Source: Pedobacter sp. SYSU D00535 (GTDB lineage Bacteria > Bacteroidota > Bacteroidia > Sphingobacteriales > Sphingobacteriaceae). From it: a stretch of 64,000 nt of DNA. Numbering within the stretch: position 1 is the stretch's first letter; each line of letters opens with the position of its first letter. Below the pieces are notes generated by a model. It did not search any database. It was not told the DNA's origin and saw only the letters and a list, made by a program, of their open reading frames with translations. Shown piece after piece: positions 28,903 to 31,865 of this stretch. The stretch is from assembly GCF_017355855.1 (NCBI RefSeq), contig NZ_JAFEWD010000004.1, positions 62,001 to 126,000 of the forward strand. Direction: 5' to 3'. Made by a program: the position numbers and the translations under genes.

Positions 28903-30042
28903 ATGTCGCGCATTTATCTCGATAACGCCGCAACTACTCCCCTGGATCCTGATGTCCTCAAAGAGATGTACAGGGTAATGGAGACTAGCTTTGGCAACCC
29001 TTCATCAATTCACGCTCACGGGCGGGAGGTGCGTACTATTGTTGAAAAGGCGCGAAAGACAGTTGCGGGGCTTCTACATGCCTCTCCTGCAGAAATATTT
29101 TTTACTTCAGGCGGGACTGAAGCCGACAATACGGCAATTAGGTCTGCTATTAACGATCATAAAATCACTCATGCAATCACTTCAGTAATTGAGCATCATG
29201 CGGTTTTGCATACGCTACAGGCGTTGGAGAAAAACGGCTTAATTAAACTGAGTTATGTAAGCACCGACAGCAGAGGAAACATTGACCTTAGTCATCTGGA
29301 CGAGCTTTTAAGCAAAAATGAACGGTCTTTCGTTTCCCTCATGGAAGCGAACAACGAAATTGGCACTTTAACCGATTTACAGGCGGTAGGGGAGGTGTGT
29401 GAAAAGCATTCCGCAATTTTCCACTCAGACACAGTGCAAACTATGGCTCATTACGCTCATGATTTGCGGAAATTAAAAGTCCATTTTCTGACCTGCGCTG
29501 CTCACAAATTTCACGGGCCGAAAGGAGTAGGGTTCCTGTATGTGAATCCTTCAATCAAGATAAATCCGATGATCTCGGGAGGGTCTCAGGAACGGAATAT
29601 GCGAGGGGGAACGGAAAATGTATATGGTATCGCCGGCTTGGCAAAAGCGCTTGAACTGTCCTATCGTGACATGGATATTCATAGGGCTCATATTCAAGGC
29701 CTGAAATCGTACATGATAGAACAATTGCAGCGGGAGGTGGAAGGAATTAGTTTCAATGGTGAAATTGATGCTGATAAAAGCCTATATACTGTATTGAATG
29801 TCTCTTTTCCCGAAATGGAAATGTCCGACATGCTCTTGTTCAATCTAGACATTGCAGGAATTTCCTGTTCTGGCGGAAGTGCCTGTAGTTCAGGTACTAA
29901 TATTGGTTCTCACGTTTTGGAAGGAATCGGTGCATCTCCGAACCGACCTGCCGTGCGCTTTTCCTTTAGTAAGTATAACACGAAAGAGGAAATCGCCTTT
30001 ACAGTAGCTAAGCTGAAAGAGATTTGCTCTTCTTTACTTTAG
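28903..30042 (+). CDS. Cysteine desulfurase (NifS/IscS class)
   Basis: A PLP enzyme that moves sulfur from cysteine to a protein persulfide for Fe-S, thiouridine or cofactor synthesis. It opens with IYLDNAATTPLDPDV, has SGGTEADNTAIR and the cofactor Lys in TCAAHKFHGPKGVGF. The active-site Cys lies in the loop SCSGGSACSSGTNIG. At 379 residues it is normal. No iscU or other Fe-S gene is adjacent, so the sulfur acceptor is not evident. Confidence 0.92.
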   Translation: MSRIYLDNAATTPLDPDVLKEMYRVMETSFGNPSSIHAHGREVRTIVEKARKTVAGLLHASPAEIFFTSGGTEADNTAIRSAINDHKITHAITSVIEHHAVLHTLQALEKNGLIKLSYVSTDSRGNIDLSHLDELLSKNERSFVSLMEANNEIGTLTDLQAVGEVCEKHSAIFHSDTVQTMAHYAHDLRKLKVHFLTCAAHKFHGPKGVGFLYVNPSIKINPMISGGSQERNMRGGTENVYGIAGLAKALELSYRDMDIHRAHIQGLKSYMIEQLQREVEGISFNGEIDADKSLYTVLNVSFPEMEMSDMLLFNLDIAGISCSGGSACSSGTNIGSHVLEGIGASPNRPAVRFSFSKYNTKEEIAFTVAKLKEICSSLL

Positions 30043-30131
30043 CTCTCCCACCTTATTTATTTTCTCTTTACTGAAACAAACAGGGTAAGCCCGGGTGTTT
30101 ATTTGATAAAACAACCTTAAGCTAGATACCT

Positions 30132-30746
30132 ATGAAATTATTTAAAGAAGAGCTTTTAATTCCTCAAGATGAAGATTTAAGAGTGGATACATTTACAGTG
30201 GACCCTGAGGATGACGAAGATGTTGACTCCAGCAATGACGATTTGGGGGAAAACACTGAAGTTACCCCTCTCGGGGATGAAGTTGATGAAGAAGACATGA
30301 ACTCCTACCGCGCACCAGGTGAAGAAGACGATGATTTGCTGGACGATGATGAAGATGATCTTTTGCTCGACGATGACGACCAGTTTCTGGAAGATGACGA
30401 CGACGTAGTTGATATTTACACAGCGGATAGTTCACCAATAGACGATGATGATTACGTGGATGAAGATGATGACTTCATGGAAGACGATGATGAAATAGCT
30501 AACCCGGATGTAATACCTGTTGTTCCTGATACAGATGATGATGAAGATCAGGGAACCTGGGCCGATGATGACGATGATCTGTTAAGTGTTGATGATGACG
30601 AAGATGATGACTCAGCCACTGGCGATGGTACAGGATCGAGCACCGCGAATTTGAATACCGATTTTTCTACCCGGCACCCAGAGAGGAAGACGGGACGGAT
30701 GTATGGTCACGAGCCGGGTGTTCAGGGTTTTGATGGAGATTTTTAG
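30132..30746 (+). CDS. Hyperacidic low-complexity protein
   Basis: I do not recognise a domain in this 204-residue protein. About 63 Asp and 21 Glu (41%) lie in runs such as DDLLDDDEDDLLLDDDDQF, interrupted by Leu, Val and Pro patches. There is no signal peptide or membrane helix, so it is cytosolic. Two less acidic ends frame the acidic middle: KLFKEELLIPQDEDL and a C-terminal RHPERKTGRMYGHEPGVQGF. The strongly basic 58-residue gene follows after one base. DNA mimicry, cation binding or acting as a charged partner are possibilities. The gene model is supported by an open frame with no other credible frame. Confidence 0.72.
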   Translation: MKLFKEELLIPQDEDLRVDTFTVDPEDDEDVDSSNDDLGENTEVTPLGDEVDEEDMNSYRAPGEEDDDLLDDDEDDLLLDDDDQFLEDDDDVVDIYTADSSPIDDDDYVDEDDDFMEDDDEIANPDVIPVVPDTDDDEDQGTWADDDDDLLSVDDDEDDDSATGDGTGSSTANLNTDFSTRHPERKTGRMYGHEPGVQGFDGDF

Positions 30747-30747
30747 T

Positions 30748-30924
30748 ATGAGCGACGATAAGCCAAAACATAATCATACTGGTCAGACACCTACTGACAT
30801 TCCTTCCGAGGAGTTGATAAATCCGCCGAAGAAGAAACGCGAGAAAAAGGTTGACAGACGAAGTGATTTCAATTCAACAGCTAAAGATCCGAACTTGGGT
30901 AGCAGAAATAACACAGGAAGATAA
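30748..30924 (+). CDS. Small basic protein, partner of the acidic protein
   Basis: ATG at 30748 begins one base after the acidic gene's TAG and encodes 58 residues. An upstream in-frame start at 30703 would lie inside the acidic gene and is not preferred. The middle is strongly basic (NPPKKKREKKVDRRSDF) and both ends are polar and disordered-looking, with SDDKPKHNHTGQTP near the start and NLGSRNNTGR at the end. A strong terminator follows 6 bases after the stop, which supports the two genes forming a complete operon. Function unknown. Confidence 0.68.
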   Translation: MSDDKPKHNHTGQTPTDIPSEELINPPKKKREKKVDRRSDFNSTAKDPNLGSRNNTGR

Positions 30925-30929
30925 AGAAG

Positions 30930-30951
30930 CCCCGATAATATCGGGGTTTTT
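30930..30951 (+). terminator. Terminator of the acidic/basic gene pair
   Basis: CCCCGA and TCGGGG pair around a 5-base loop and are followed by five T. The T run merges with the promoter of the next gene. Confidence 0.8.
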
Positions 30952-30971: not shown

Positions 30972-31865
30972 ATGGAAAGACGTGAATTTTTGAAAGCTTC
31001 AGGCATTTCGCTGGGCTTATTAGCCTCTTTAAACTACGCTGCTTTTGCTGATTTTTTTAGCCGTGCCTATGTATTTAAGCCCCTTCGTAATAACGTCGGT
31101 ATATTTACTGAACAGGGTGGAACAATAGCATGGCTTGCAAATAAGGATGGAATCGTCGTGGTCGACTCGCAGTTTCCTGACCCGGTTGCTCATCTTATTA
31201 CTGAATTGAAACAAACTTCAGGCTCGCCTTTCAGATATCTCATCAATACCCATCATCACGGCGATCATACTTCCGGTAATTCGGCTTTTAAAGGAATGGT
31301 AGATCAGGTCGTTTCTCATCAAAATGCATTGGATCATTTAAAAAAGGCTGCCAGCGCCGGTTCTGGAACCCAGCAGTTTCTACCCAATAAGACCTTTAAA
31401 GATGATATGGATTTTCGGGTGGGGGATGAAAATATAAAGCTCTATTATTTCGGAGCAGGGCATACGAATGGAGACGCTATCATTCATTTCAGCCGCGCTA
31501 ATATTGTTCACATGGGAGATCTTGTCTTCAATCGTCGCTTTCCCTTCATCGATAAACCTGGAGGAGCTAATATAGGAAGCTGGATCAAAGTCCTCGACAA
31601 AACAATCAAAAAGTTTGACAAGGACACCCTTTTTGTCTTTGGGCATGCTCTGGATCCCGAAAAAGTAACCGGAACGGCGGAGGATCTTAAGGCATTCCAG
31701 AACTACCTGGAGAAATTATTGGAGTTTGTTGGGGCAGCAATTAAGGCTGGACAATCCAAGGAAAGTATTTTGAAAGCCACCTCCATTCCCGGCGCTCCCG
31801 AATGGAAAGGGCAGGGAATCGAGAGAAGTCTCAATGCTGCCTACCAAGAGCTAACTAATAGCTAG
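30972..31865 (+). CDS. Exported metallo-beta-lactamase-fold hydrolase
   Basis: A 297-residue MBL-fold protein with an apparent twin-arginine signal (MERREFLKASG followed by a hydrophobic stretch to about residue 28). Zinc motifs are complete: INTHHHGDHTSGN, FGAGHTNGDAI, VHMGDLVFNR and VFGHALDP. This layout resembles quinoprotein-relay or SoxH-like enzymes, not a proven beta-lactamase. The Tat signal suggests it is exported folded. It converges on accD with an inverted repeat spanning both stop codons. Confidence 0.82.
   Translation: MERREFLKASGISLGLLASLNYAAFADFFSRAYVFKPLRNNVGIFTEQGGTIAWLANKDGIVVVDSQFPDPVAHLITELKQTSGSPFRYLINTHHHGDHTSGNSAFKGMVDQVVSHQNALDHLKKAASAGSGTQQFLPNKTFKDDMDFRVGDENIKLYYFGAGHTNGDAIIHFSRANIVHMGDLVFNRRFPFIDKPGGANIGSWIKVLDKTIKKFDKDTLFVFGHALDPEKVTGTAEDLKAFQNYLEKLLEFVGAAIKAGQSKESILKATSIPGAPEWKGQGIERSLNAAYQELTNS

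Follow-up and report, generated by a model that had tools for sequence, protein, structure and literature searches.

Organization of the locus

The window analysed here, a 64,000-nucleotide stretch of the genome of Pedobacter sp. SYSU D00535, carries on its forward strand two small adjacent genes downstream of a gene for a NifS-like cysteine desulfurase (28903..30042, forward strand). The first gene of the pair (30132..30746) encodes a protein of 204 amino acids with 63 aspartates, 21 glutamates, 3 lysines and 5 arginines, and has a net charge of −76 and a pI of 4.05. The original prediction had put its acidic content at about 41%, with the same residue counts, and these figures proved to be exact (41.2% Asp+Glu). 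Of all 57 non-overlapping ORFs with 100 aa or more in the window, this one has the highest such fraction (mean 12%, standard deviation 5%; runner-up 23%). The protein has a GRAVY value of −1.18, contains 5.9% glycine and lacks cysteine. The AlphaFold2 model had a mean pLDDT of 54 and a pTM of 0.10, a low confidence that the shallow six-sequence alignment may partly explain, and the protein is predicted to be disordered.

Several segments can be distinguished within the acidic protein when it is compared with its homologues, all on the forward strand. The N-terminal cap, MKLFKEELLIPQDEDLRVD (30132..30188), follows the pattern M.LF.E..L..QDE.LR.D, which is common to several of the genera whose N-termini were compared. 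Residues 38–49 form a GENTEVTP-type motif, LGENTEVTPLGD (30243..30278), and are followed by an Asp-rich tract (residues about 50–160; 30279..30611), the length of which is elastic between species. The C-terminal tail module (30624..30737) contains the tail core DFSTRHPERKTGRMYGHEPG (30660-30719). The window protein matches the tail profile A3, in which it is itself one row, with an E-value of 1.5e-17 and a score of 66 bits. In 14 sequences, the arginine and the HEPG are invariant.

The second gene (30748..30924, forward strand) encodes a basic protein of 58 amino acids with a net charge of +4 and a pI of 9.77, which contains 9 acidic residues as well. Its GRAVY value is −1.85; it contains 5.2% glycine and no cysteine. 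AlphaFold2, again with a shallow six-sequence alignment, gave a mean pLDDT of 66 and just two 4-residue helices, and the protein is predicted to be largely disordered. The core KKKREKK (30829..30849, forward strand) is basic yet variable in the homologues, and the best-conserved part in alignment A1 is DFNSTAKDPNLGSRNNTGR (30865..30921, forward strand). N9, G12, P15, P19, L23, N42, T44, K46, D47, G51 and R53 are among the invariant residues.

With the acidic gene's TAG stop codon ending at position 30746 and the basic gene's ATG starting at 30748, one base is left between the two. Directly after the basic gene stands an intrinsic-terminator-like hairpin (30925..30951, forward strand) with 12 pairs, a 3-nt loop and a T run; similar hairpins are visible 3′ of the basic gene in several homologous loci. 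The one-base spacing, the KKKREKK core and the terminator had all been described correctly in the original prediction. An Rfam search returned sub-threshold matches only, mostly to snoRNA models in the repetitive tract.

Upstream of the pair, a conserved element, AAACAAACAGGGTAAGCCCGGGTGTTTA (30074..30101, forward strand), starts 58 nt before the acidic start codon and is present in Desertivirga-type loci at −49 to −64. Of 107 family members, 13 matched the pattern AAACAAA-N14..20-TGTT, whereas shuffled sequences gave an expectation of 0.16, and the window copy is the sole match in the whole genome at up to 3 mismatches. The element looks like a gene-specific promoter or operator. We also considered it as a regulon signal and rejected this, as the remaining matches in the genus fall within coding sequences.

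The gene order is stable: genes for a methyltransferase, a GlmM-like protein and the NifS-like protein precede the acidic and basic genes, and accD (opposite strand) and a class II aldolase gene follow in most loci. In the window and in one relative, a gene for a metallo-beta-lactamase-fold protein lies between the basic gene and accD/aldolase. The product of the window copy (30972-31865) begins with MERREFLKASG, possibly an export signal, and a relative of this protein is also encoded 3′ of the tail gene in most loci of genus g13.

The basic gene is conserved and closely linked to the acidic gene

The original prediction depended on the basic frame being conserved at the protein level, and it is: homologues in other genomes are 44–76% identical and keep the start, the length (55–59 aa) and the frame, with changes clustered at third codon positions. 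The single close pair that we compared gave a dN of 0.094 and a dS of 1.26. These results argue that the basic ORF is no chance frame, that the acidic and basic genes are both real and conserved, and that, by this comparison, the basic gene is under purifying selection. The basic protein was also considered as a paralogue of the tail, which hhalign did not support (E=0.17 over 10 columns).

A profile search located the basic gene in 9 of 401 Sphingobacteriaceae genomes, distributed over 5 of 25 genera. It occurs in genera whose names suggest desert isolates; the genus of the window genome (g1) also includes Desertivirga arenae and D. xinjiangensis. In a separate collection, the contigs carrying it included ones named as Paradesertivirga mongoliensis, Pararcticibacter amylolyticus and a strain labelled Flavihumibacter soli, as well as two metagenome bins. 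Judged by its gene order and its NifS, the contig titled Flavihumibacter soli (L018) falls among the Sphingobacteriaceae, and its name may be wrong.

In all nine genomes carrying it, the basic gene starts 1–10 nt after the stop codon of the acidic gene, and both frames are conserved. Tight spacing is thus a conserved feature of the pair, as the original prediction had proposed. Its expectation that the two genes would co-occur as neighbours was borne out in one direction and failed in the other: the basic gene was never seen without the acidic gene (9/9), but 37 of the 46 acidic homologues examined stand without the basic gene.

This asymmetry bears on the idea that acidic and basic proteins form a charge-driven, largely disordered complex like that of prothymosin alpha with histone H1. 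Such complexes are known elsewhere (PMC7661507), and the opposite charges, the constant close spacing and the dependence of the basic gene on the presence of the acidic one would fit. However, the charges are far from balanced, −76 against +4 here and +4 to +8 among the basic homologues, and the basic protein itself has its acidic residues; moreover, most acidic relatives do without it, and the companion genes found in other clades encode mostly neutral or mildly charged proteins. These findings do not support charge complementarity as the organizing principle of the pair. We regard a pure charge complex as doubtful, with some chance of being right, though binding between the two proteins is possible within the adaptor reading proposed below.

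A small and tightly spaced operon, with the acidic gene before the basic one and no known domain in either product, might also be a toxin–antitoxin or nucleic-acid-mimic module, in which the acidic protein would neutralize its partner or mimic nucleic acid while the basic protein acts on nucleic acid. Against this, the genes are present in single copy at one housekeeping locus, with constant neighbours and no sign of mobility, and the acidic gene usually stands without the basic one. We give this explanation the slimmest of chances.

The acidic protein belongs to a family with a common C-terminal tail

At the same locus in genomes without the basic gene, we found other small proteins sharing the C-terminal end of the acidic protein. 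The core common to the family is F.SR..GR.TGRM.(D/G)HEPG. Tail profile A3 matched 143 of 301 Sphingobacteriaceae genomes, almost always as a single copy per genome, and across 395 genomes of the phylum the convincing matches lay inside Sphingobacteriaceae only. When read, the weak matches from beyond the family (G472, G738) and those within very long ORFs proved to have no HEPG tail, and they were dismissed as chance. A scan with a degenerate DNA motif for tail paralogues in the same genome returned unrelated or chance frames only.

In 89 of 107 distinct members, the nearest recognized gene upstream is NifS-like and shares the strand of the member; for the remaining 18, no nifS was present within the fetched stretch. 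The window protein bears both marks of the family, the R.TGRM.(D/G)HEPG tail and the position 3′ of a NifS-like gene. In other genera, small tail proteins (67-aa forms in g13 and 96-aa forms in g14) likewise follow a NifS-like gene and end in the same motif, but differ from the window protein in that their ORF lacks a long Asp tract, and in their companion genes. In one genome (L033 in G023), the tail gene is seemingly spread over two frames, possibly through a frameshift or a separate start.

Acidic content across the family ranges from under 10% up to 47%. Depending on the genus, the Asp tract either precedes a short SEQTDVTPP motif or follows a GENTEVTPL motif, and in some members the tail follows short non-acidic segments (D+E about 0.18). 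In the NifS tree, acidic and non-acidic forms are interspersed; some of the non-acidic ones have the acidic part as a separate gene.

Neither the acidic nor the basic protein matched Pfam or NCBIfam, the tail and basic profiles found no match in the PDB, and a literature search found nothing on the DHEPG-tail family. As judged from the sequence comparisons, the acidic protein is a member of an apparently undescribed, Sphingobacteriaceae-specific family kept mostly at one locus. The conserved tail is more informative than the charge contrast of the pair.

Their hydrophilicity, the lack of cysteine and the predicted disorder of both proteins, together with the desert-like genus names, raise the idea of protectants of the hydrophilin or LEA type that would guard the cell when it dries out or is osmotically stressed. 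Hydrophilins have been described as high-glycine, highly hydrophilic proteins (PMC4190154), whereas glycine makes up just 5.9% and 5.2% of the two proteins, and the conserved C-terminal motif and the fixed locus suggest specific binding over bulk protection. A protectant role is decidedly unlikely.

Acidic region and tail occur fused and split

In genus g14, the acidic region and the tail are fused in some species and encoded by adjacent separate ORFs in the same interval in others. The split acidic ORF matched the N-terminus of the fused form with an E-value of 2.9e-30, and the tail gene matched its C-terminus with an E-value of 1.0e-43. The split loci (L062, L063, L064, L070, L071, L132, L134 and L148) have a separate acidic ORF of 68–169 aa, with a net charge of −32 to −56, placed 5′ of a short tail gene. 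This fusion and fission, a Rosetta-stone-type line of evidence, suggests joint action of the acidic half and the tail half.

A tail of this kind, FSN.H.ER...FGIDHEPG, is also found at the C-terminus of HMA metal-binding-domain proteins in four Sphingobacteriaceae genomes (L089, L117, L118 and L122, in G124, G129, G113 and G021, respectively), and hence the tail looks portable. These proteins resemble the acidic protein in their C-terminal end, but an N-terminal HMA domain (PF00403) with CxxC replaces the Asp tract; no nifS was recognized beside their genes in the stretches read.

The tailed HMA proteins are one of the points in favour of a cation or metal buffer tied to iron–sulfur or heavy-metal handling, in which the Asp tract would bind ions and the tail would deliver the tract to a partner; the NifS-like gene upstream in most genomes and the preference for Asp over Glu in the acidic members are others. 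The adjacency to nifS may, however, be mere inherited gene order, non-acidic tail proteins sit at the same place, and nifS is separated from the pair by the gene-specific promoter-like element. We consider such a buffer very unlikely.

The locus gathers small hydrophilic companion genes, of which the basic gene is one. Among several g13 loci (L080, L081, L086 and others), another small basic protein, which has a net charge of +2 to +4 and the pattern HF.K.HKR.F.SFG, precedes the tail gene; in two species (L080, L081) it ends in GHEPGTTPG, identifying it as a diverged tail paralogue. Several g14 species have a different, conserved companion of 71–77 aa, bearing the motif KVLH.DGS(L/F)ADLPD, 3′ of the tail gene (L129, L130, L134, L135, L137, L139, L141, L151, L153 and L169).

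The tract keeps its charge and varies in length

To evaluate how the Asp tract evolves, we compared twelve close pairs of acidic homologues. Of 106 Asp changes, 66 (62%) were to or from Glu, synonymous Asp changes were common (121), and the net charge was nearly unchanged in most pairs; the length of the tract, in contrast to its charge, is free to vary. As a control, the folded enzyme NifS gave an Asp–Glu share of 21/38 (0.55). Both values lie above the neutral expectation for the Asp-to-Glu share, which by our own rough reckoning is about a quarter. The similarity to the control points to ordinary constraint on the tract: by these counts, its aspartates evolve like the constrained Asp positions of an enzyme and unlike a neutral spacer. 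Special selection on Asp was rejected for the same reason, the nearly as high share in NifS leaving ordinary charge constraint only.

These data also weigh on the notion that the tract is a neutral GAY-repeat expansion in a tolerant disordered spacer. Its elastic length would be so explained, as would the excess acidity, which comes from Asp more than Glu, and the acidic tract of one relative (L090, 2142-2621) has near-perfect DDDTL/EDDTL repeats suggesting recent repeat expansion. But the predominance of exchanges with Glu and the preserved net charge do not agree with neutrality; in the window copy, the DNA repeats are weak, and acidity persists as a separate ORF where the gene is split. Neutral expansion is a highly improbable account of the tract.

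A motif of the acidic protein tracks the basic gene

The presence of the GENTEVTP-type motif, LGENTEVTPLGD in the window, was compared with that of the basic gene in the 46 acidic homologues. Eight had both the motif and the basic gene, one the motif alone, one the basic gene alone and 36 neither; the association (8/9 versus 1/37) has a Fisher p of 3e-7, with the limit that the counts ignore shared ancestry. In genus g20, the basic gene is missing from the species that do not have the motif. One species of that genus (G100) has the motif, but the expected place of the basic gene is taken by a gap filled with repeats. Because the motif co-occurs with the basic gene, LGENTEVTPLGD, rather than the Asp tract, is the candidate site at which contact with the basic protein should first be sought.

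A proposed adaptor role

We propose that the acidic protein may be a disordered adaptor whose tail serves for docking and whose Asp tract is a polyanionic arm, with the co-translated basic protein as a modulator, and give this reading a probability of roughly 0.35. According to this model, the tail would dock on a partner common to the whole of Sphingobacteriaceae, and the arm would either shield that partner or maintain the solubility of a cationic client. The basic protein, produced in a fixed ratio through the tight spacing, would bind near LGENTEVTPLGD and control the use of the arm. At the centre of the system would stand the tail and not the charge pair. What is shown is that the genes are real and closely spaced, that the family exists, that its motifs are conserved and that fusion and fission have occurred. 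Disorder in the cell, docking, binding between acidic and basic proteins, and any physiological role are steps that we infer.

The proposal draws first on the tail as the common element, matched in 143 of the 301 genomes and not convincingly recovered outside the family among the 395 genomes of the phylum. It also takes up the fusion and fission in g14, the portability of the tail, the maintenance of charge, the adjacent and selected basic gene, the tracking of that gene by LGENTEVTPLGD and the low predicted order. The occurrence of the tail on short non-acidic segments suggests that the polyanionic arm is not always needed. An adaptor role is our interpretation of composition and motif conservation.

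A bolder and unlikely version holds that Sphingobacteriaceae might use the TGRM.(D/G)HEPG tail as a portable and so far undescribed C-terminal docking signal, by which different cargoes, disordered or metal-binding, are brought to a single conserved partner. The Desertivirga-type cargo would then be a polyanion set by a co-translated basic disordered protein contacting LGENTEVTPLGD.

For the Bacteroidota family described here our searches turned up no Pfam or NCBIfam model, and nearly everything in it changes apart from a tail of 20 residues. Should this tail prove to be a docking signal, its partner could give a function to a gene that roughly half of the Sphingobacteriaceae genomes sampled possess. 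Nature has also varied the system, by fusing or splitting the gene and by keeping or omitting the basic gene, which provides a natural experiment on the use of charge in bacterial disordered proteins.

Comparison with known systems

Like the hydrophilins and LEA proteins (PMC4190154), the two proteins are short, highly hydrophilic on average and predicted to be disordered. They differ in that glycine is not clearly high (5.9% and 5.2%), the charge is dominated by Asp, the C-terminal motif is conserved and the locus is fixed.

Prothymosin alpha and histone H1 form a eukaryotic disordered complex (PMC7661507), which resembles the present pair in that a very acidic protein and a basic one, here both predicted to be disordered, are considered as partners. 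No sequence relation was found between the two systems, and ours is bacterial, with a putative interaction. In our pair, −76 faces just +4 (+4 to +8 in the homologues), short of the very high opposite charges expected of both partners in a complex of this type. The acidic protein described here further differs from prothymosin alpha in having conserved linear motifs at both of its ends.
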